From contig CAMNRO010000001.1 in assembly GCA_946553045.1 (NCBI GenBank), positions 1 to 64,000 on the forward strand: a stretch of 64,000 nucleotides of DNA, in the 5' to 3' direction. Source of the DNA: an uncultured Porphyromonadaceae bacterium (lineage in GTDB: Bacteria > Bacteroidota > Bacteroidia > Bacteroidales > Muribaculaceae). Below, piece by piece: positions 12,591 through 57,182 of the stretch (positions within the stretch are counted from its first letter, which is position 1; each line of letters opens with the position of its first letter). The notes below the pieces were generated by a model that made no database searches, was not told the DNA's origin, and saw nothing but the letters and a program-made list of their open reading frames with translations. The position numbers and the translations under genes were made by a program.

Positions 12591-13205
12591 ATGAAAAAGT
12601 CTTATATAATAATCGGCATTTTAGTTGCTCTGGGCCTCTTCGCCTTTTTCAATGGCAAATCGACCTACAACTCCATGATGACCCTCGACCAGGACGTTGA
12701 GCAGTCGTGGGCCCAGGTTCAGGTGCAGTATCAGCGCCGTCTCGACCTCATTCCCAACCTTGTCGAGACCGTCAAAGGCTATGCCAAGCACGAAAGCGAA
12801 ACTTTCGAGAACGTGACCCGCGCCCGCGCAGGCCTCACCGATGCCTACAATGAGGCTAATGATGCCAACAGCACCACAGCCCCCGACAACGAGCAGGCAT
12901 TCGTAAAAGAACAGCAGTCGCAGGACGCCCTCAAGAAGGCTCTCAGCATCTACGTAAATGCCGTTCGCGAAGCCTACCCCGACCTCAAGGCCGACACTCA
13001 ATTCATCAACCTGCAGACTCAGCTCGAAGGCACTGAAAACCGCATAGCCACCGAACGCGGCCGCTACACAGAGGCAGTGCGCACATACAATGTGGCCGTA
13101 AAGCGCTTCCCCGCCAACATCTGGGCTTCGATTTTCGGCTTCAAGGCCAAATCTCAGTTCCAGGCCGACGCAGAAGCTGCCAAAGCCCCTACAGTAACAT
13201 TCTGA
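12591..13205 (+). CDS. lemA: LemA family protein
   Basis: The 204-residue protein has one N-terminal membrane helix (about residues 5-21) and then the long helical LemA domain. It carries the conserved start LDQDVEQSWAQVQVQYQRR followed by LIPNLVETVKGYA and, later, LQTQLEGTENRIATER and YN.AVKRFPANIWA. The family is widespread and its function is not settled. The next gene starts one base after its stop, so the FKBP-like lipoprotein is certainly co-transcribed. Confidence 0.95.
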   Translation: MKKSYIIIGILVALGLFAFFNGKSTYNSMMTLDQDVEQSWAQVQVQYQRRLDLIPNLVETVKGYAKHESETFENVTRARAGLTDAYNEANDANSTTAPDNEQAFVKEQQSQDALKKALSIYVNAVREAYPDLKADTQFINLQTQLEGTENRIATERGRYTEAVRTYNVAVKRFPANIWASIFGFKAKSQFQADAEAAKAPTVTF

Positions 13206-13206
13206 T

Positions 13207-13770
13207 ATGAAAAAACTGCTTTATCTGCCCATAGCCCTTCTTCTCGCTGCCGGTGCAGGTTGCGACGACGATGTCAAGACCACCTGGGAAGAATATACCG
13301 ACTGGCGTGAGGCAAATGCCGAATGGCTTGCCGAGCAACAGCTGCGCACCAATCCCGACGGCACACCTTATTTCACAAAGATTGTGCCCGACTGGAACCC
13401 AGGCGCTTTCGTGCTGATCCACTATTTCAACGACCGCGCGGAAACCGAAGGCAATCTAAGTCCGATTTACACCAGCACTATCGACACGCGCTATGAGCTT
13501 CATCTCTACGACGGCACTGCCGCCGACTCGAGCACTCTGAGCACTTCGCCTGCTCCCGGAGTATTCCGCACCCGGCTCAACAATACCGTCCAGGGCTGGG
13601 CAATGGCGCTGTGCGACATGCGCTGCGGCGATACTGCAGAAGTAATCCTTCCCTACGGTGTTGCCTACGGCTCGCAGAACCTCGGTACAATTCCCCCGTA
13701 TTCGAATCTGCGCTTCAATATCCGCCTTGTAGACATTCCTTACTATGAGGCTCCGCCTTACGAAAAATAA
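13207..13770 (+). CDS. FKBP-like lipoprotein
   Basis: This 187-residue lipoprotein has an SPII site (AAGAGC, Cys 19) followed by acidic DDD. The C-terminal half has the outline of an FKBP peptidyl-prolyl isomerase: GWAMALCDMRCGDTAEVILPYGVAYG followed by the hydrophobic IPPYSNLRFNIRLVDI strand. Several of the aromatic active-site residues of true FKBPs are not obvious, so chaperone activity without isomerisation is possible. It is coupled to lemA (one-base gap) and ends at a strong terminator. Confidence 0.78.
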   Translation: MKKLLYLPIALLLAAGAGCDDDVKTTWEEYTDWREANAEWLAEQQLRTNPDGTPYFTKIVPDWNPGAFVLIHYFNDRAETEGNLSPIYTSTIDTRYELHLYDGTAADSSTLSTSPAPGVFRTRLNNTVQGWAMALCDMRCGDTAEVILPYGVAYGSQNLGTIPPYSNLRFNIRLVDIPYYEAPPYEK

Positions 13771-13780
13771 GCCCGATATA

Positions 13781-13815
13781 AAAACGGCCGCGCAATCATC
13801 TGCGTGGCCGTTTTT
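13781..13815 (+). terminator. Terminator of lemA-FKBP operon
   Basis: The stem AAAACGGCC / GGCCGTTTT (with extra GCG.CGC pairing) is followed by U5. It is flanked by A- and T-runs, so it may also act on the convergent PspC transcript. Confidence 0.85.
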
Positions 13816-13893
13816 CATAAACAATCAATCTAATTATACTTTATGATATATTTAACTTTCTGACTGTCGCCCGTGGGAGGCGACAGACTGCCG

Positions 13894-48606: not shown

Positions 48607-49053
48607 ATGAAAGACAAAGATATAGCCATGACACTGATTGACCTCGGCGAAGTCGACGGCGCAAGCGCCATCAACCGCCGCGCTCTCCGACGGCTCACCC
48701 GCGAGCCTATCAGTGTGGATATGAACGTAAAAGTCGTGCCCGACACCGACCGCTCTCTTCTCAGCATACTCGTATCGTGCTCATACCGTGCCGTCATTGG
48801 CCTTATACGCGAACGACTGCTCGTATGCACGGCTGTGGCAACCTTCGAGGTCGAAGACCTTGCTTCTCACATAGAGGAAAACGGGCAGGACAAACTTCTG
48901 CCCACACCACTGATGATGAACATGCTCGGCATCGCCGTAGGCGCTCTCCGCGGCATCGTTGCCGTAAAGACTGCCGGAACACCGCTAAGACGGCGCCCTA
49001 TGCCGATAATCGACCTCAACACACTCATGCGCCGCCTGTCCGGGCCAAGATAG
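48607..49053 (+). CDS. SecB-like small protein (uncertain)
   Basis: This 148-residue protein is one I do not firmly recognise. The C-terminal part (TPLMMNMLGIAVGALRGIVAVK, then PMPIIDLNTLMRRL) has the layout of the long helix and final strand of SecB-fold proteins: a Gly-rich helix, Arg-Gly, then an L/MPxID segment. The N-terminal half reads as beta-strands (SVDMNVKVVP, LLSILVSCSYRA). If SecB-like, it would be a holdase or export chaperone. No SecA or toxin gene is adjacent. It follows the glycosidase by 31 bases and ends at a terminator. Confidence 0.6.
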   Translation: MKDKDIAMTLIDLGEVDGASAINRRALRRLTREPISVDMNVKVVPDTDRSLLSILVSCSYRAVIGLIRERLLVCTAVATFEVEDLASHIEENGQDKLLPTPLMMNMLGIAVGALRGIVAVKTAGTPLRRRPMPIIDLNTLMRRLSGPR

Positions 49054-49322: not shown

Positions 49323-51098
49323 ATGGAAAAACGATTACTATATATAAGAACCATTCTAATACTATTAATGCTGTTTTTTGTTGGAGCTGAATCGCTAAAT
49401 GCACAACGACAAAAAAACAACATCTTTCTTTTCGATTGTACAGGCTCAATGCAGACAAACGGTCTGTGGAATCCCGCAAAAGATGCTCTCGATGCCACTA
49501 TTGCCACTCAGACAAACATAGACGGTTCACAGTTCTCGGTAATTCCTTTCGGCGACAGCCCTTATGGCGTCATATCGTTCGATTCCGACGGCTATCTTTC
49601 TCAAAAAAAGAATATCAATGATACTTTTGAAAAATATATTGCCAGTTCGAAATATACCCGCATTTCCGATGTGCTTCAGGAAGGTTTTACTAAAGTAAAT
49701 CCGCATCGCGACAATCGAATATATCTTCTTACCGATGGTCTTCCCAATCAAGGCGACACACCCGAAAAGGTCGCCCGGACTATAACCGCCTGGTGTGCCA
49801 ATCATAAAAACACACGTTTTTTCTATGTCGCACTGAAAAATGATGTAATTAATCCTGTGATAAAGCAGGCTATCGACAATTGCCACGATGCTTTTATTGT
49901 GCAGTGCCAAAACCGTGTGATTCCACAGATTGCCGATATTTCAGCCCACGTCTATACCAATATAGAAGAACTGGACACCGATAAATCGATAGAATTCAGT
50001 CTTCCCGGAGAATATGGACTTTCCATATCAGAGAGTGATTCATTATTCAGCACCGAAATTGTAGACAGCCGTGCTTTAGGCGGTAAAATCAATCTTAAAT
50101 TCCGCCCCGGACAGGGCTACGATATAGCCCGACTTCACGAAACAATGCAAGGCGGAGAATATGAATTTACTGTCGATATATCGTGCTCCGATTCGCGCTA
50201 CTTCATAGCAAACCCGACACTTACCGTCCATGTTTCCGACAAGATGCTGTCGGAACTTGTGATATCCGACGGTCTCAATCAATTGAATGCCGATGAGGTG
50301 GAGTGGCACGACTCCTTTTTATGGTCGCCGGCTGCCCCCGAACGCAAAATAGAATGGAATCTTGCCCCGATATTCAAGAACGAACTCCAGCGCACGGCAT
50401 TGAAACTTAAATTTGTTCAGCGAGAAGGCGAAGCTGCCGATTTTGAAGCGTGGCTGAATGGAGAGCCTCTACCGATTGGCAGCACTTTCGATGTTATACC
50501 CGGCTCTGCATATGTGCTTAGTGTGCAATTCAACCACAAAGCCACTACTGGAGAACGCTATTTCAACCTTATTCCGGTAGAAATCAACGCCATCGACATG
50601 ATAAACAATGAGCCGGCCGATTCGTACGAAGGGACATCGTTGCATACATCGTATGCTGTGAAATGGAATCCTCTCAAAACATTCCTTTTCTGGCTTGGCG
50701 TCGTACTCCTTTGCGCATTGCTGATATGGCTTATTGTACTTAAGCGAATATTGTTCCCGAAAATAAAGGTTGGACGTATCGAATTTACCGGCCCTGACAC
50801 CTACTATGTGTCAAAACGCCTCAAAGATGCCAGAAAAGTAGTATTTACATCCAAGAAACAGTCGCAAAACATAATATCGCGCATATTTACAGGCGAGATT
50901 CGCTTTGTACGCGCCGAACATTTCGAGCCTGAGATTATCGTCGAGCCATTCGGTCGCGGCAAGAAAGTGAAAATATATTCTGTGTCTACAGGTATATCCG
51001 GCTGGGATATCTACCCTTCGACATCATTCGCACCCTACGAAAAAGGAAAAGCTGTAAAACGTAGCGACAACACCAAGACTGAATTTGAATTAAGCTAA
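49323..51098 (+). CDS. Secreted, membrane-anchored von Willebrand factor A domain protein
   Basis: The 591-residue protein has a signal peptide (about residues 1-28, cut near NAQ). A VWA domain (33-215) follows with a MIDAS variant D38-C-T40-G-S42 and YLLTDGLPN (Asp138) as the third ligand loop. Beta-rich segments run from about 225 to 445. One transmembrane helix (453-473, FLFWLGVVLLCALLIWLIVL) precedes a 118-residue basic C-terminal domain. The VWA part should thus be periplasmic and the tail cytoplasmic. It is the first gene of the cassette; the tubulin-like gene begins 19 bases on. The family role is unknown; VWA domains bind protein ligands through the metal site. Confidence 0.88.
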   Translation: MEKRLLYIRTILILLMLFFVGAESLNAQRQKNNIFLFDCTGSMQTNGLWNPAKDALDATIATQTNIDGSQFSVIPFGDSPYGVISFDSDGYLSQKKNINDTFEKYIASSKYTRISDVLQEGFTKVNPHRDNRIYLLTDGLPNQGDTPEKVARTITAWCANHKNTRFFYVALKNDVINPVIKQAIDNCHDAFIVQCQNRVIPQIADISAHVYTNIEELDTDKSIEFSLPGEYGLSISESDSLFSTEIVDSRALGGKINLKFRPGQGYDIARLHETMQGGEYEFTVDISCSDSRYFIANPTLTVHVSDKMLSELVISDGLNQLNADEVEWHDSFLWSPAAPERKIEWNLAPIFKNELQRTALKLKFVQREGEAADFEAWLNGEPLPIGSTFDVIPGSAYVLSVQFNHKATTGERYFNLIPVEINAIDMINNEPADSYEGTSLHTSYAVKWNPLKTFLFWLGVVLLCALLIWLIVLKRILFPKIKVGRIEFTGPDTYYVSKRLKDARKVVFTSKKQSQNIISRIFTGEIRFVRAEHFEPEIIVEPFGRGKKVKIYSVSTGISGWDIYPSTSFAPYEKGKAVKRSDNTKTEFELS

Positions 51099-51117
51099 AA
51101 TCTCTCATTATCAAGAT

Positions 51118-53901
51118 ATGGCAAAACTAAGAAGAACCCTTTTGATAGGGTTGGGCGGTACCGGCATAAAGTCGATACTCGATGCAAAAAAGATGTTCTA
51201 TGAGAACTACGGTCAGATACCTCCGATGATCGGATTTCTCGGAATTGATACTGATGCTCCCGGCTTACGTAATTCATTTGTTACAGCAGCCGACGGTACC
51301 ATAATTTCTCTTAATCAATCGGAGCAGCTATGCATTTCGGTATCTAATCCGGCTCAAATATACCTCAACAATATCAATTCAGGACTTTTCGACTGGATGC
51401 CGGATAGTAATGTATCGGGCTTGTCGGCTCTTTCAATAGGAGCCGGTCAAATGCGCAGCAACGGACGTTTCGCCATCACAGTAAATGAAAATTCCGTACA
51501 GCAGATTATAAATCACAAAATTACGGAAGTAAACAACGCCCGTATAATAGATAATTCCAACTACGATCTTCTCGGAAAAGACACCGAGGTCCACATGGTA
51601 TTTTCTCTTGGCGGTGGCACTGGCAGCGGCACATTCATCAACATCGCTTACCTTATCAAGCGCATGTTCCCCGGCATAAAGCTTTCCGGATATGCTGTAC
51701 TTTCCGACGTGTTCCGTCTTATGGTCACAGGCGTCATGTCTTCTCGAGTAAAACCCAATGGCAAGGGCGCGCTGATAGACCTCGATTATCTTGCACATCT
51801 CACACCGGCATCCGAACCAATAAATGTGAAGTGGTTTCATACGGTCGATAAAGTCAACAGCCGCGCTTTCGATGCACTGTATCTCGTTGACAATTCGAAT
51901 GAGAATAACGATATGTTCGACCGCGTAGACCCGCTCTGCCAAATGATTGCCCTCGCTATCGTAACATCGGTAGGCGAGCTTGGCGTGGCTCTCGATTCTG
52001 TGAGCGACAACGTGAGCAAACTTATTGCCGACGGAAGCATGGACATTCGGAATAAAAAGGCCTGGGTGGCAGGTTTCGGATGCGCCGAAATAGTATTCGA
52101 CGGCGAACGCCTTGCCAATATCTACGCTCGCAAAGCCTCTATACAACTGGTAAACAAGATGCTCAACGGCGGTTGCGACGACCCTGCCATCATAGCCAAC
52201 AACTGGTTCGACAACACCAAGATTCGCGAAAATCAGAATAAGGACGATGTAATCGATTACTTCATGGCGCCCACTCCCGAGCATGTGCTGACAGAAATCG
52301 ACAGTCCCGACAATCCTCTTCCCGAGTGCCAGCAGTATATAGCCAACCGAGCCATGCCGAGCAATACGAAGCTCGAGGAAAAACAAAGTGCGCTCCAGAC
52401 TCGCGTCGAAGAGTCGCTTTCGCGCCTCTTGAAGGAGCAGGCCGACAGAGAATGCGGCATTTTCCTCTGTAGCCAGATTCTTCTTACAATCCTAAATCAG
52501 ATTGAACTCTGCGATACTGAGATGAAGAATGAAAAGGAAGACTTCGAAGCTCAGTTACCACGTCTGGAATCGTCGATGAAAACTGCCTGCAGCGAACTTG
52601 CCGACTGCATGGACACATTTTTCAAACTCCGTCGCAGAGACTATGAAGCCGAGGTCGTGAATCAGACCATGAAACTTGCTGTGGCTCGCCGCGAAATCGC
52701 TCGCCGCAAGATGGCCAGTGAATTCTATAGCTGGCTTCGCGAGCGTATCAACAAGTCGATAGAACGGGTAGACATTATAATGTCGAATCTTCAGACTCTC
52801 CGCAACGAAAGCAACGTCGAGATACAGAAACTCGTTCGCAATGCCGCCGATGCCAACTTCTTCCAATTTGAACTATCGGCCAACTATGCCGAAAAAATTT
52901 CATGCCCGCTGTCAGATATCGTTTTTAACGATTTCACAGGCTTCATGCAGTCTGAAGGTGGCATAGCCTCCATCTCCGGCATGTCTTCAAAGCAGACCGA
53001 GGAAATCATAATGCGTTTCGTGCGTACTCTCCCGAAGGTCAAGAAATATAGTGCAATGACCGTCGACGATGCCATGGACGAACTCAGCGAAGACGAGCTC
53101 AAGTCGCTAATTAACAAAGCAGTGAAGAAATCGTTACCTCTGCTGCCATATACCTTCCGCGGTTTCGATGCCGACCTTCGCGAACGCCCCGTAGAATGTT
53201 ACTACATAGGTGTGGCAAGCAAAGGCCGCTCTCGCCTGGTAAAAGACAACTTTTTCCAGAACCTGGTATCGGGCGCAAAAGACGTCCAGTTCTCCGAAAT
53301 CGGCCTGAACAACCGTGTGATTATTTACCGTCAGCTCGGTGTGATTCCTGCATTTGCTGTCAAATCGCTCGACAACTACAATACCGAATACGAAAAGTGG
53401 GAAACTGACAAACCCAACGGCTCGCACTGGGACAAGAATATGTGCACTCGTATGACCAAGGAGCGCTACAGCCTGTTCCCCAAAAATACCGGAAATCCGC
53501 GTCTCCTTGAAATCTGGGTTTCTATTGTGGTCTACGGTCTGATGAAATACGATGCCGAAAGCGGACAGTATCGCATAAAGAGCCGTGGTCTCGGTGGAAA
53601 GGCACTTCGCGGCTGGCTTGTAGATATGGGCAAATCTCGTGCCGATGCGTTCTGCTTCCTCGAAGACAATATCGATATTCTTGAAGAAGAAATAAACCGC
53701 GAAATCAAGGAAATGGACATACCCGGCCCTGACAATCAGCTTCGTAAACTGTCGGAGCAGGCTGTAAAAGCTTGCGAAGACGGCACATATCTCGAAACCG
53801 TGTCAAAAAGTCCCATCCCAATGAAAACCATAGAGCTTTATCCGGCTGAAATGGATATCATCGAAAAGGAAATAGCTTTTATTCTTGATAATTACAAATG
53901 A
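51118..53901 (+). CDS. Tubulin-like (Tubulin_2) protein
   Basis: The 927-residue cytosolic protein has a nucleotide-binding domain of the FtsZ/tubulin superfamily: LIGLGGTGIKSI at residues 9-20 (loop T1), LGIDTDAPG at 41-49 (T2-like), IGAGQMRSNGRFA at 107-119, the diagnostic T4 loop GGGTGSG at 165-171, and FDALYLVDNSNENND at 251-265. About residues 430-590 are charged and helical, likely coiled coil. It is twice the length of FtsZ, so it carries a large added C-terminal region. The catalytic T7 loop is not obvious by eye. It overlaps the protease gene as ATGA. Confidence 0.9.
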   Translation: MAKLRRTLLIGLGGTGIKSILDAKKMFYENYGQIPPMIGFLGIDTDAPGLRNSFVTAADGTIISLNQSEQLCISVSNPAQIYLNNINSGLFDWMPDSNVSGLSALSIGAGQMRSNGRFAITVNENSVQQIINHKITEVNNARIIDNSNYDLLGKDTEVHMVFSLGGGTGSGTFINIAYLIKRMFPGIKLSGYAVLSDVFRLMVTGVMSSRVKPNGKGALIDLDYLAHLTPASEPINVKWFHTVDKVNSRAFDALYLVDNSNENNDMFDRVDPLCQMIALAIVTSVGELGVALDSVSDNVSKLIADGSMDIRNKKAWVAGFGCAEIVFDGERLANIYARKASIQLVNKMLNGGCDDPAIIANNWFDNTKIRENQNKDDVIDYFMAPTPEHVLTEIDSPDNPLPECQQYIANRAMPSNTKLEEKQSALQTRVEESLSRLLKEQADRECGIFLCSQILLTILNQIELCDTEMKNEKEDFEAQLPRLESSMKTACSELADCMDTFFKLRRRDYEAEVVNQTMKLAVARREIARRKMASEFYSWLRERINKSIERVDIIMSNLQTLRNESNVEIQKLVRNAADANFFQFELSANYAEKISCPLSDIVFNDFTGFMQSEGGIASISGMSSKQTEEIIMRFVRTLPKVKKYSAMTVDDAMDELSEDELKSLINKAVKKSLPLLPYTFRGFDADLRERPVECYYIGVASKGRSRLVKDNFFQNLVSGAKDVQFSEIGLNNRVIIYRQLGVIPAFAVKSLDNYNTEYEKWETDKPNGSHWDKNMCTRMTKERYSLFPKNTGNPRLLEIWVSIVVYGLMKYDAESGQYRIKSRGLGGKALRGWLVDMGKSRADAFCFLEDNIDILEEEINREIKEMDIPGPDNQLRKLSEQAVKACEDGTYLETVSKSPIPMKTIELYPAEMDIIEKEIAFILDNYK

Positions 53902-56900
53902 ATTCGACAGTCTCTGTCTGGACTTCATCGCTGACATCAAAAGCTGAATCGGAGGTCGCACGCATTGTTCGTGAGGCCCCCGGTGCAGCTTCCGTCTATG
54001 ACCATATAGCAGCTTCCGGTCTGACTGAGTCCGAACTTACTATTAGACTGACCGAGGCTTTCAACAAACTGGTGAAAATGACAATGTCAGACACCACTCT
54101 ACATGTGGTCGGCATTGTTCCACTCTCCAATGATGCAGCAGACTTACAGATAAAAACTCTTGCCAAGGCCTGTGCCGGAGTACGACACGACATAACACTC
54201 CACGTCATTGGCCTGCGTTCGGGTATTTGCCGTTTGTTCGGAATCGCAGAGACTTCCGAGAGTCTTGCGACAGAGCAGAAAAACATTGACGAACTCAAGG
54301 CTTCCAGCGCCGACAGCCATCTTTCAATATCATTTTCGCTTATCGACGATTATGTAGCCAACGGAGCACCGGTAAGGTTCACAATCAATAGTTTCGCCCA
54401 TTACCTCGCTGTCTTCCAGCTCACACTGGCAAAAGACTACTATGCCGTTCTATCGCCGTCCATGCTGGCATCACATCGCGGTCAGAACATATCAATCGGT
54501 CTTTCCACTCTCAAATTCGACCGCACCGCGACTGCTCGCCAGCTCTTAGGTTTAGGCTTCCTGTCGGCTCTTGATAATGTAGGAATTAATCGGCGTGAGG
54601 TAGACGCCCAGAAGGCCTCTCATGCAGCCGAACAATTTCTCTCAGGAATCTCAGATCGCTATCCGATTCTTTTCAGAGAACAGATCCGCCCGCTCTATAA
54701 AGACAAAGGTTTCGAAGAGGGACGTGTTGTGGCCATGGCTTCGGATATTCTTGATGCCGATATTTCGGACTTACGCGATTCAATTCTGTCGCTACTGCAT
54801 TCAGATTCGATGTCTCTGCCTGAAAAAGAAGCGGTATTGTCGCAGATTCTCGGTCGTGACAACGAGAATATCCGTGGCGTCCACTACGAACAGGAGACAA
54901 CCATTATCGATGATGCCTGCACCGAACCTATCGACATCTTCATAAACGCATTCAACGACTATTGCCCTGATTCACATCTGCTGCCAATACGTTCCGATTT
55001 CGAAGCTCTTAAACTATACGACTTCAATCTGTCGACTCTCGAGATGGAGGAAAGCCCACAAAATAAAAAGGCGCTCAATCCTCTGTCCGACTTAAAGAAA
55101 CTAAAACGCAGCATCCTCAATACCACTGCCTATATCCGAAACAAGACAGAAGAGCTCAGCGACTTGCAAAAGGCCAACGACCGCCGCGAGAATGTCGTAG
55201 AGATACGAAAAAAGTGGTCGAGACCGCCGGGAAATCCTGATACAGTTATCTTTAAAGAACAACCTCTTGACGACAAATATATACCGACAGCAGGTCTCGA
55301 AAGGAAAAAATCGGTCGATCTCCGTAAATTTTTCTCGCCCGTACGCGATCAGCTGAAACTGGGCTCGTGCACATCGTTTGCAGTAACGGGAATGTACGAA
55401 GCCATGATGAACATCCGTAATTTTTCGGGCGACAATGTAATGAGTCCGGCATACTTGTACTACTACTCGAATGTTTGCACAGGCCGGCCAGAAGGTGGCA
55501 GCAACTTTTACGAGCAACTTGAAGTGCTCGGAAAGCGCGGAGTATGCCAAGAATACATGTATCCCTATAAGCCGGACGATACCTCTGAGGCTCCGACAGA
55601 AGCGGCCGAAGCAGAAGCAGCAAAACATAGAGTATTGAGCGCCAAGCAGATTATGCTTGTAGACACAGCCGATAAAAAGGCAACCATCGATAAGAACCAC
55701 GAACTTCTGACAAGTGCATTGTCCGAAGGCTTCCCTGTGGGAATATCGCTCAGAATATTCGATGTATTCGGTAAGGACGGTTCGTTCATACTTCACCCTG
55801 ACGATTGTCCTGAAAAGACCGATATAGGCTTTCATGCAATGGTTATTGCCGGATATTCCGAAGAGAATGACATCTATATAGTCCGCAACTCATGGGGCGA
55901 AGACTTTGGAGACAATGGCTATTGCTATATACCGTCTGTTTATATCGATGACCCTGACTATCTTTCTTTTGCCTGTATTATCACAGAAACTACGGACTCT
56001 GTAGCTTCTAATTCGGCTGAGATTCCGCCGCTTATTGCCGAATTCGCGGCTACTGAATCTGAAATTCAGGCTGCAGCCATACGAAATGTGATAAGCAAGA
56101 CAAAAGTGGAGCTGAACTGCAACATAAGAATCTACAAAGAGTATTATAAATACTATCAGAGGCTTATCCAGCAACTTGCTATCCCAAAAGTACAGGAAGA
56201 CATCAGAAAGGCTGCTCAAACAGCCTCCACGCTGCATTACATTGAACTCGACAAAGAGCGCGAAAAGTTAGAAAGCTCATTCGTAGCCAAACTCAAAGAA
56301 TATAAAAAGGCTATGAGATATGTGATAGCGTGGTTGCTGCTGGCGGCTGTAATCTCCGGTCTTCTGTACTATGTGATACGCGAAAACGTTGTCGGCATTA
56401 CAGCTCTTGTATTCAGTATCCTTGGTGCCTTTGCCTGGGCTGGATATAAATGGAATGTACGTCGTCGCCGACGCGAACTGCAGGAAGAACTCGACCATAT
56501 TGCCACAAGAGTAGCGCGTAAGTCGGAAGAACTTCTTGAGATGCAGATAAAGTTCCACGTCGCAGGGATGTGGCTGAGTCGTTTCCACCACCTGTCACGC
56601 GATCTTGGCACAGTCTACGACCGACTCGTAAGCTATAACAGCACACTCTGCGGCTGGCGACAATTCTATTCTAACAGTGTAGACACGCTCGAAGAACCAG
56701 ATGGTCCTATGTTCCGTATTTTAGACCCCACAAAACTTCTTCAGTCATTCTTCGATGCCAACAAGACATGGATAGTAGGAAAAATCGACCTGATGAAAGT
56801 ATTCGACGAATATCAGGTATCGGCCGACAATCTGGAAAAATCGCATGAGACGCTTCGCAAGTCCGTGGGCAGTGCTACTACGGCATTGATGGCCGATTTC

Positions 56901-57182
56901 GACATTACTGAGTTCCTTACCGGGGCTGACTATCCATACCTGTCACCGGTAAATCTACAAGAAGAAATAGCACAGATGCTTGCAGTCGGACAGCCCACAC
57001 ATAAAAATACGGCCGTAGAAGTGGCAACGCCAATGCGCTTGCTTATGGCATGTGTGGATTCCGACAGGAAAACTCGCTGGCTGTCGACAATAACACCTTA
57101 TTTCCCTTTGCAGCCAATGCATCTTGATTCCAACGACAAGCTGTCTTTAACTCTGCTGACCTTGCACCCGTTGCCGGTCTAA
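53898..57182 (+). CDS. Membrane-anchored papain-like cysteine protease
   Basis: The 1094-residue protein has a C1A peptidase domain at about 465-700 with all catalytic parts: oxyanion Gln485 (VRDQ), nucleophile Cys491 (GSCTSFAV), His646 (GFHAMVIAGY) and Asn664 in VRNSWGEDFGDNGY. Q-to-C spacing is six, as in papain. Residues 1-440 match nothing I know. Two adjacent membrane helices (808-828 and 832-850) form a hairpin, followed by RRRRR and a helical C-terminal tail. There is no signal peptide, so the protease and tail should face the cytosol with the tubulin-like protein. There is no obvious inhibitory prodomain. ATGA overlap couples it to the upstream gene. Confidence 0.88.
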   Translation: MNSTVSVWTSSLTSKAESEVARIVREAPGAASVYDHIAASGLTESELTIRLTEAFNKLVKMTMSDTTLHVVGIVPLSNDAADLQIKTLAKACAGVRHDITLHVIGLRSGICRLFGIAETSESLATEQKNIDELKASSADSHLSISFSLIDDYVANGAPVRFTINSFAHYLAVFQLTLAKDYYAVLSPSMLASHRGQNISIGLSTLKFDRTATARQLLGLGFLSALDNVGINRREVDAQKASHAAEQFLSGISDRYPILFREQIRPLYKDKGFEEGRVVAMASDILDADISDLRDSILSLLHSDSMSLPEKEAVLSQILGRDNENIRGVHYEQETTIIDDACTEPIDIFINAFNDYCPDSHLLPIRSDFEALKLYDFNLSTLEMEESPQNKKALNPLSDLKKLKRSILNTTAYIRNKTEELSDLQKANDRRENVVEIRKKWSRPPGNPDTVIFKEQPLDDKYIPTAGLERKKSVDLRKFFSPVRDQLKLGSCTSFAVTGMYEAMMNIRNFSGDNVMSPAYLYYYSNVCTGRPEGGSNFYEQLEVLGKRGVCQEYMYPYKPDDTSEAPTEAAEAEAAKHRVLSAKQIMLVDTADKKATIDKNHELLTSALSEGFPVGISLRIFDVFGKDGSFILHPDDCPEKTDIGFHAMVIAGYSEENDIYIVRNSWGEDFGDNGYCYIPSVYIDDPDYLSFACIITETTDSVASNSAEIPPLIAEFAATESEIQAAAIRNVISKTKVELNCNIRIYKEYYKYYQRLIQQLAIPKVQEDIRKAAQTASTLHYIELDKEREKLESSFVAKLKEYKKAMRYVIAWLLLAAVISGLLYYVIRENVVGITALVFSILGAFAWAGYKWNVRRRRRELQEELDHIATRVARKSEELLEMQIKFHVAGMWLSRFHHLSRDLGTVYDRLVSYNSTLCGWRQFYSNSVDTLEEPDGPMFRILDPTKLLQSFFDANKTWIVGKIDLMKVFDEYQVSADNLEKSHETLRKSVGSATTALMADFDITEFLTGADYPYLSPVNLQEEIAQMLAVGQPTHKNTAVEVATPMRLLMACVDSDRKTRWLSTITPYFPLQPMHLDSNDKLSLTLLTLHPLPV

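Follow-up and report, generated by a model that had tools for sequence, protein, structure and literature searches.

A VWA-tubulin gene cassette whose probable second tubulin carries a papain-type peptidase

The cassette described here is of the FtsZl1-VWA kind and very probably holds two paralogous tubulins, the second of which carries an inserted papain-type peptidase; no earlier description of such a set was found. It lies in the window, i.e., the whole stretch of 64,000 nucleotides that was analysed, where three genes on the + strand are packed into positions 49323-57182 and encode a VWA protein, a Tubulin_2 protein (TUB) and a papain-domain protein. The first two are separated by 19 bp (51099-51117), and the second and third overlap by the ATGA at 53898-53901. 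All three reading frames were re-found where the first-pass annotation had placed them, with the same gap and overlap, and an HMM search put the three families it had named (VWA, Tubulin_2 and Peptidase_C1) over the Pfam cut-offs. The features are as follows.

49323..51098, + strand: VWA protein, 591 aa (PF00092, E 2.2e-7; 11-row alignment and sequence)
51118..53901, + strand: Tubulin_2/FtsZl1-type GTPase-like protein (TUB), 927 aa (PF13809, E 4.5e-49; GGTGxG in 45/45 rows)
53898..57182, + strand: third protein, 1094 aa (PF00112, E 1.1e-17; AlphaFold model; profile comparisons)
53898..54509, + strand: third protein residues 1-204, N-domain without phosphate loops, putative Rossmann domain of the FtsZ/tubulin type
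55308..55991, + strand: third protein residues about 471-698, predicted papain-type (C1) peptidase domain with Q485, C491, H646 and N664
56307..56450, + strand: predicted TM hairpin of the third protein, residues about 804-851, flanked by basic residues (hydropathy, sequence and model helices)

The trio is a real unit, conserved far above chance. In a sample of 198 genomes from the window's family, PF13809 matched 34 (29 over the cut-off), and 30 of the 36 such places outside the window were fetched for reading. In 11 of them, the tubulin (921-972 aa) matched that of the window at E 1e-64 or better. A VWA gene precedes and a papain-protein gene follows the window-type tubulin in all 11 relatives, and in 12/12 wherever the genes are readable and the window is counted; the exceptions to easy reading are one VWA gene masked by an antisense reading frame (L038), two split VWA genes (L035 and L041) and a contig that ends within the papain gene (L033). 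At the remaining 19 places, the tubulin is of another kind or is a fragment cut off by a contig end, and the papain protein is seen at none of them. The first-pass annotation had staked its reading on the three genes occurring together, which they do. A search with the N-domain of the third protein matched 13 of the same 198 genomes, namely the 12 trio genomes, the window's included, and one (G096) whose form lacks the papain and lies at the end of a contig. The spread is thus patchy, with the trio in 12/198 genomes of the family.

A wider survey by pattern scan, with one genome per species, yielded 71 loci, some of which repeat loci of the family sample. They come mostly from gut and rumen Bacteroidales, but also from Myroides, Fibrobacter, Ignavibacteriae and Fischerbacteria genomes. 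Four loci end before the third gene; of the other 67, 56 have the papain region, nine lack it, and in two (L068 and L112) the third gene is cut by the contig end ahead of that region. In an order-wide sample, the papain-protein profile matched 75/295 genomes, and among the matches listed, beyond the window's own, little was covered outside the papain part. In a phylum-wide sample, the tubulin profile matched 4/395 genomes, the window's included. Phages gave no match, viral contigs gave one distant tubulin, and plasmids matched the papain domain alone, in four records.

By its Pfam match, TUB is assigned to the Tubulin_2/FtsZl1 family and is predicted to be GTPase-like. Its N-terminal Tubulin_2 domain scores 168 bits against a curated cut-off of 27. 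The GGGTGSG phosphate loop, which the first-pass annotation had located at residues 165-171, is indeed found there, and GGTGxG is kept in 45/45 aligned tubulins. A search of the PDB by sequence with the tubulin profile gave coiled-coil matches alone (best E 0.0052). The possibility that the tubulin fold or the papain site might not be real, also raised in the annotation, is countered by Tubulin_2 and Peptidase_C1 matches that both lie over the cut-off.

The trio had been read as a VWA protein, a tubulin-like protein and a protease. The families and the gene order hold, but the "protease" is also tubulin-like (profile E 2e-8). Pfam gives no direct Tubulin_2 match in the third protein of the window, and the relationship comes from profile comparisons. 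The scaffold of the third protein, freed of its papain domain, matched TUB at E 9.4e-5 (probability 58.8), and at E 2.1e-8 (probability 95.3) once more third proteins were added. The third proteins of L124 and L125 form a bridge: they exceed the Pfam Tubulin_2 cut-off on their own (38.0 and 50.3 vs 27), match TUB at E 2.1e-10 over 419 columns, and match the papain-free scaffold at E 8.7e-8, or 3e-11 over 747 columns with the expanded profile. Control profiles (VWA and papain) set against scaffold, TUB and bridge gave E 0.19-0.37.

Other comparisons gave weaker values. The N-domains of both tubulins compared alone reached a weak E of 0.0066, and several groups of third proteins gave E 0.02-0.15 against TUB or one another directly. 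A third protein of type C (L052, 952 aa) gave E 0.0016 and 0.019 against the scaffold, with one of its controls at 0.039, and was not linked to it with confidence. VIA-align ranked FtsZ, TubZ, PhuZ and CetZ structures at the top for the model of residues 1-204, tied with a Rossmann enzyme. For the N-domain, Foldseek returned no E below 0.013, and the PDB searched by sequence nothing under E 0.3. Both GTP phosphate loops are absent from the third proteins (0/46). The third protein is, with high probability, a second tubulin-like subunit with papain inserted, a paralogue of TUB, and the cassette would therefore be a two-tubulin system.

In the third protein, the N-domain and the papain domain are followed by a region of long helices, which includes the TM hairpin, and by a helical C-domain. 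Its AlphaFold model has a mean pLDDT of 87.4 and a pTM of 0.63, with helices at 763-827 and 830-927. The complete papain set and the TM hairpin claimed for it were both recovered: Q485, C491, H646 and N664 (Gln-Cys-His-Asn) come with a match to the peptidase C1 fold, and the hairpin falls at about 804-851. Across the 56 third proteins with a papain region, the catalytic Cys is kept in 55, the His in 56 and the Asn in 56 (L095 and L129, whose papain-less rows contributed misaligned letters, are left out of these tallies). Ser stands at the place of the Cys in L114, which lies on the same contig as L031 (10995-14249); a Cys occurs there one residue earlier. The third protein is a predicted family C1 peptidase, and its papain domain is predicted to lie on the cytosolic side. 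Unlike the xylellain-like members of that family (PDB 3ois), it sits inside a membrane-anchored tubulin-like protein.

The peptidase, an insertion with the tubulin-like part on one side and the anchor on the other, lies in the subunit expected to touch TUB, a position that would suit a device that disassembles or limits the polymer by cutting TUB or its own scaffold. Several alignments to proenzymes already begin at residue 437, before the mature domain starts, in the manner of a zymogen-like tether. The model confidence is, however, very low at 435-449, and papain-less relatives retain both tubulins, so that a peptidase acting on the polymer is considered very improbable.

The first-pass annotation saw a dedicated papain-type peptidase as the third partner. 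This part requires revision, as the papain domain appears from the comparison of relatives to be a module, an exchangeable effector, and nine third proteins are without it (L095, L115, L117, L118, L120, L122, L124, L125 and L129). The Fibrobacter protein (L095) has no C1 match in Pfam and aligns to model positions 1-471 and 738-1151 back to back, with the intervening stretch missing. In Prevotella (L129), the third protein has a C-terminal Transglut_core domain (38.4 bits vs 23). Transglutaminases have a papain-like fold. In L052, which holds another kind of tubulin set, a transglutaminase-like domain over the cut-off occurs in a fourth protein (845 aa), whose gene comes after those of a VWA protein, a 1077-aa tubulin and a 952-aa protein. 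On a tree of 48 tubulins, in which L068 and L112 were labelled papain-bearing though the region is unseen and the outgroup joins on long branches, the papain label changes three times, a number that a single gain with two losses could explain. The Fibrobacter row falls within the Bacteroidota set, a placement consistent with transfer.

The genes after the papain gene also vary. In 7 of the 60 loci with a downstream gene, one endonuclease cluster follows directly, and it is NucA-type by Pfam in the two members scanned. These loci are L074, L079, L081, L092, L093, L097 and L113, with the endonuclease gene within 7 bp in 6/7. In L073, an ion-channel gene overlaps the papain gene, and the gene that follows in the window is of neither kind. 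Beside the papain-less third gene of L122, 4 bp past its end, lies a gene for a 224-aa protein (13154-13825); its N-terminus is rich in cysteine, and its DA1-like match exceeds the cut-off.

The VWA protein has, as claimed, a signal peptide and one TM helix, the latter at about 453-473 and followed by a predicted cytosolic tail of about 115 aa. These assignments, and that of the TM hairpin in the third protein, come from sequence, hydropathy and the helices of the AlphaFold model. The topology proposed in the first-pass annotation is plausible. The VWA domain is predicted to be periplasmic. It has D38xT40xS42, T112 and D138, which we take to be the MIDAS positions, and all five residues are invariant in 11/11 aligned rows.

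The favoured reading, held with about even confidence, is a VWA-gated tubulin platform that presents a protease effector and is probably defensive. The membrane platform would be built from two related tubulin-like subunits. TUB keeps both GTP loops, whereas the second tubulin, without them, would be anchored in the inner membrane by its TM hairpin and carry the papain-type peptidase. The VWA protein, with its periplasmic MIDAS domain and cytosolic tail, is the likely sensor or gate. An envelope event, e.g., phage attachment or entry, might be relayed via the VWA protein and be followed by GTP-dependent assembly of TUB with the second tubulin in the membrane. Clustering may then turn the papain domains on, which would cut cytosolic or membrane proteins and so stop the invader or the cell. 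We infer here the membrane sides, the sensing, the assembly, the activation, the substrates and the defensive purpose. A narrower version, in which VWA-triggered co-assembly of a GTP-binding and a loop-less membrane tubulin switches on an exchangeable cysteine peptidase for immunity, is put forward tentatively and is rather less probable. If true, such an immune platform would be the tubulin counterpart of caspase-activating platforms. A second tubulin as protease carrier would mean that these tubulins may assemble effectors, and not divide cells or move DNA.

A periplasmic VWA domain and a cytosolic peptidase in one membrane would also be a plausible layout for signalling. In a switch of this kind, VWA would bind a ligand and the papain domain would cut a regulator, in response to envelope stress or in surface protein processing, with no phage involved; the ordinary look of the window's neighbours agrees with this. 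Nevertheless, most relatives should have a core stress pathway, yet the trio is found in 12/198 genomes of the family, and the peptidase is absent from 9/67 related third genes. A non-phage proteolysis switch is therefore considered unlikely.

The defensive role is suggested by the patchy spread, the swappable effectors and the neighbourhood in Thermales. There, brxL follows three plasmid sets of VWA, tubulin and third gene as well as one remnant, and BrxL was confirmed by PADLOC in the two tested. The Thermales tubulin matches TUB at E 6e-80 over 840 columns and the VWA proteins match at E 2e-15. The third proteins compare at E 0.15 and 0.3, and Pfam finds no papain match in the Thermales one. 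Its motifs LWNRRGARL and GLGLARMERA resemble the window scaffold by eye, with no significant profile match. Furthermore, the VWA-tubulin sets on the Thermales plasmids (L212, L213, L215 and L217) adjoin brxL, helicases and methylases, and one adjoins type I-C cas genes. As these relatives and the remnant adjoin brxL, the VWA-gated platform is favoured and thought to be probably defensive. The neighbourhood also offers a direct route to the question of phage defence. The likeness to BREX and the Thermales defence loci lies in this adjacency; in contrast, the window trio has no BREX match, and only the VWA-tubulin pair is demonstrably common to both.

The support for defence is circumstantial. 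PADLOC has no match, BREX included, in the three trio genes, which alone were scanned in the window, and the cassette has no obvious defence island around it. In Bacteroidota, PADLOC was run on 124 of 261 neighbours, left from a random draw of 129 once five third genes or antisense frames had been taken out, and its matches, as seen in the best 25 of 138 families, were scattered. They were not counted as support, being scattered and without a baseline. No brxL was found within 8 kb at three other plasmid tubulin loci that were opened; one of these, a Deinococcus locus of the FtsZl1 type, has MotA and OmpA genes.

Gene sets of FtsZl1 and VWA have been proposed as membrane-remodelling systems (Makarova and Koonin 2010, PMC2875224), which confirms the precedent that the first-pass annotation had named. 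In the parts of these sources considered here, the sets stand as proposed in 2010, without tested function (PMC2875224, PMC7159879). Like them, the cassette has a TUB that is a member by Pfam, a VWA gene directly upstream and membrane-associated partners; unlike them, as far as the main text describes them, it is without kinase, GTPase of their kind or OmpA, and has as its partner a papain-bearing tubulin paralogue that lacks the loops. The terms "papain", "protease" and "peptidase" are absent from the main text of PMC2875224, in line with the annotation's view that the protease partner is the unusual part.

Following that proposal, the two tubulins could build a filament attached to the membrane and so give the inner membrane or envelope its shape, with papain trimming a structural protein. 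Two of the three trio proteins are predicted membrane proteins, and the Deinococcus locus has OmpA and MotA-type neighbours. Set against remodelling are the patchy distribution, with one Fibrobacter copy nested among those of Bacteroidota, the lack of OmpA or kinase among the trio's three genes by Pfam, the papain missing or replaced in relatives, and the brxL next to the Thermales relatives. Remodelling is considered doubtful, though less so than the proteolysis switch.

Moreover, GTPase-centric conflict systems with GAP1-N2 combine coiled-coil tubulins (two in firmicutes) with a membrane vWA protein (Kaur et al. 2020, PMC7159879). Tubulins plus membrane vWA and the proposed conflict role are shared with the cassette. 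In contrast, the tubulin theme of those systems is given in the portion of that paper considered here as restricted to firmicutes and actinobacteria and as accompanied by GAP1 and GTPases; no papain-tubulin fusion is described there, and none of their genes is in the cassette. Pfam found no GAP1 or TRAFAC GTPase genes in the trio or in the two reading frames upstream of it, and none in the best 25 of 169 Pfam families for the 124 sampled of 261 neighbours of relatives. Among the matches listed in a literature search of titles and abstract openings, to which most subscription papers and preprints were outside, neither a papain-tubulin fusion nor tubulins with brxL appeared.

A glycosidase-like gene lies upstream of the trio in the window, as does a 148-aa reading frame (48607-49053), which has no Pfam match and looks, presumably, SecB-like; a relative of it (59%) occurs in L204. 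The genes downstream read as what we take to be a ferredoxin oxidoreductase operon. NCBIfam names none of the eight proteins searched, the trio included. Across 15 same-genus stretches (drawn from the 44 of 49 genomes that had a match, with some flanking genes missed by the gene picker), the DNA preceding the ferredoxin oxidoreductase genes was variable, and none of the 15 was a clean site without the trio.

Other tubulin sets were met as well. The set of L051 and L052 (L052 1592-11907, - strand) is a different one, with a VWA-like protein just under the Pfam cut-offs, the 1077-aa tubulin, the 952-aa protein and the 845-aa transglutaminase-like protein, the Pfam domains being taken from L052 alone. 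L058-L060 have a very divergent tubulin-like reading frame of roughly 550-565 aa (Tubulin_2 22-31 bits), which in L058 and L059 adjoins a 1325-1330-aa protein, without a Pfam match in L059. A third kind of set, with a 1019-1070-aa tubulin, is found in L042-L050, L054, L056 and L057 (e.g., L049 8488-17231); downstream in L049 are a weak zinc-ribbon match, an NTF2-like protein and a protein with an FGE-sulfatase domain.
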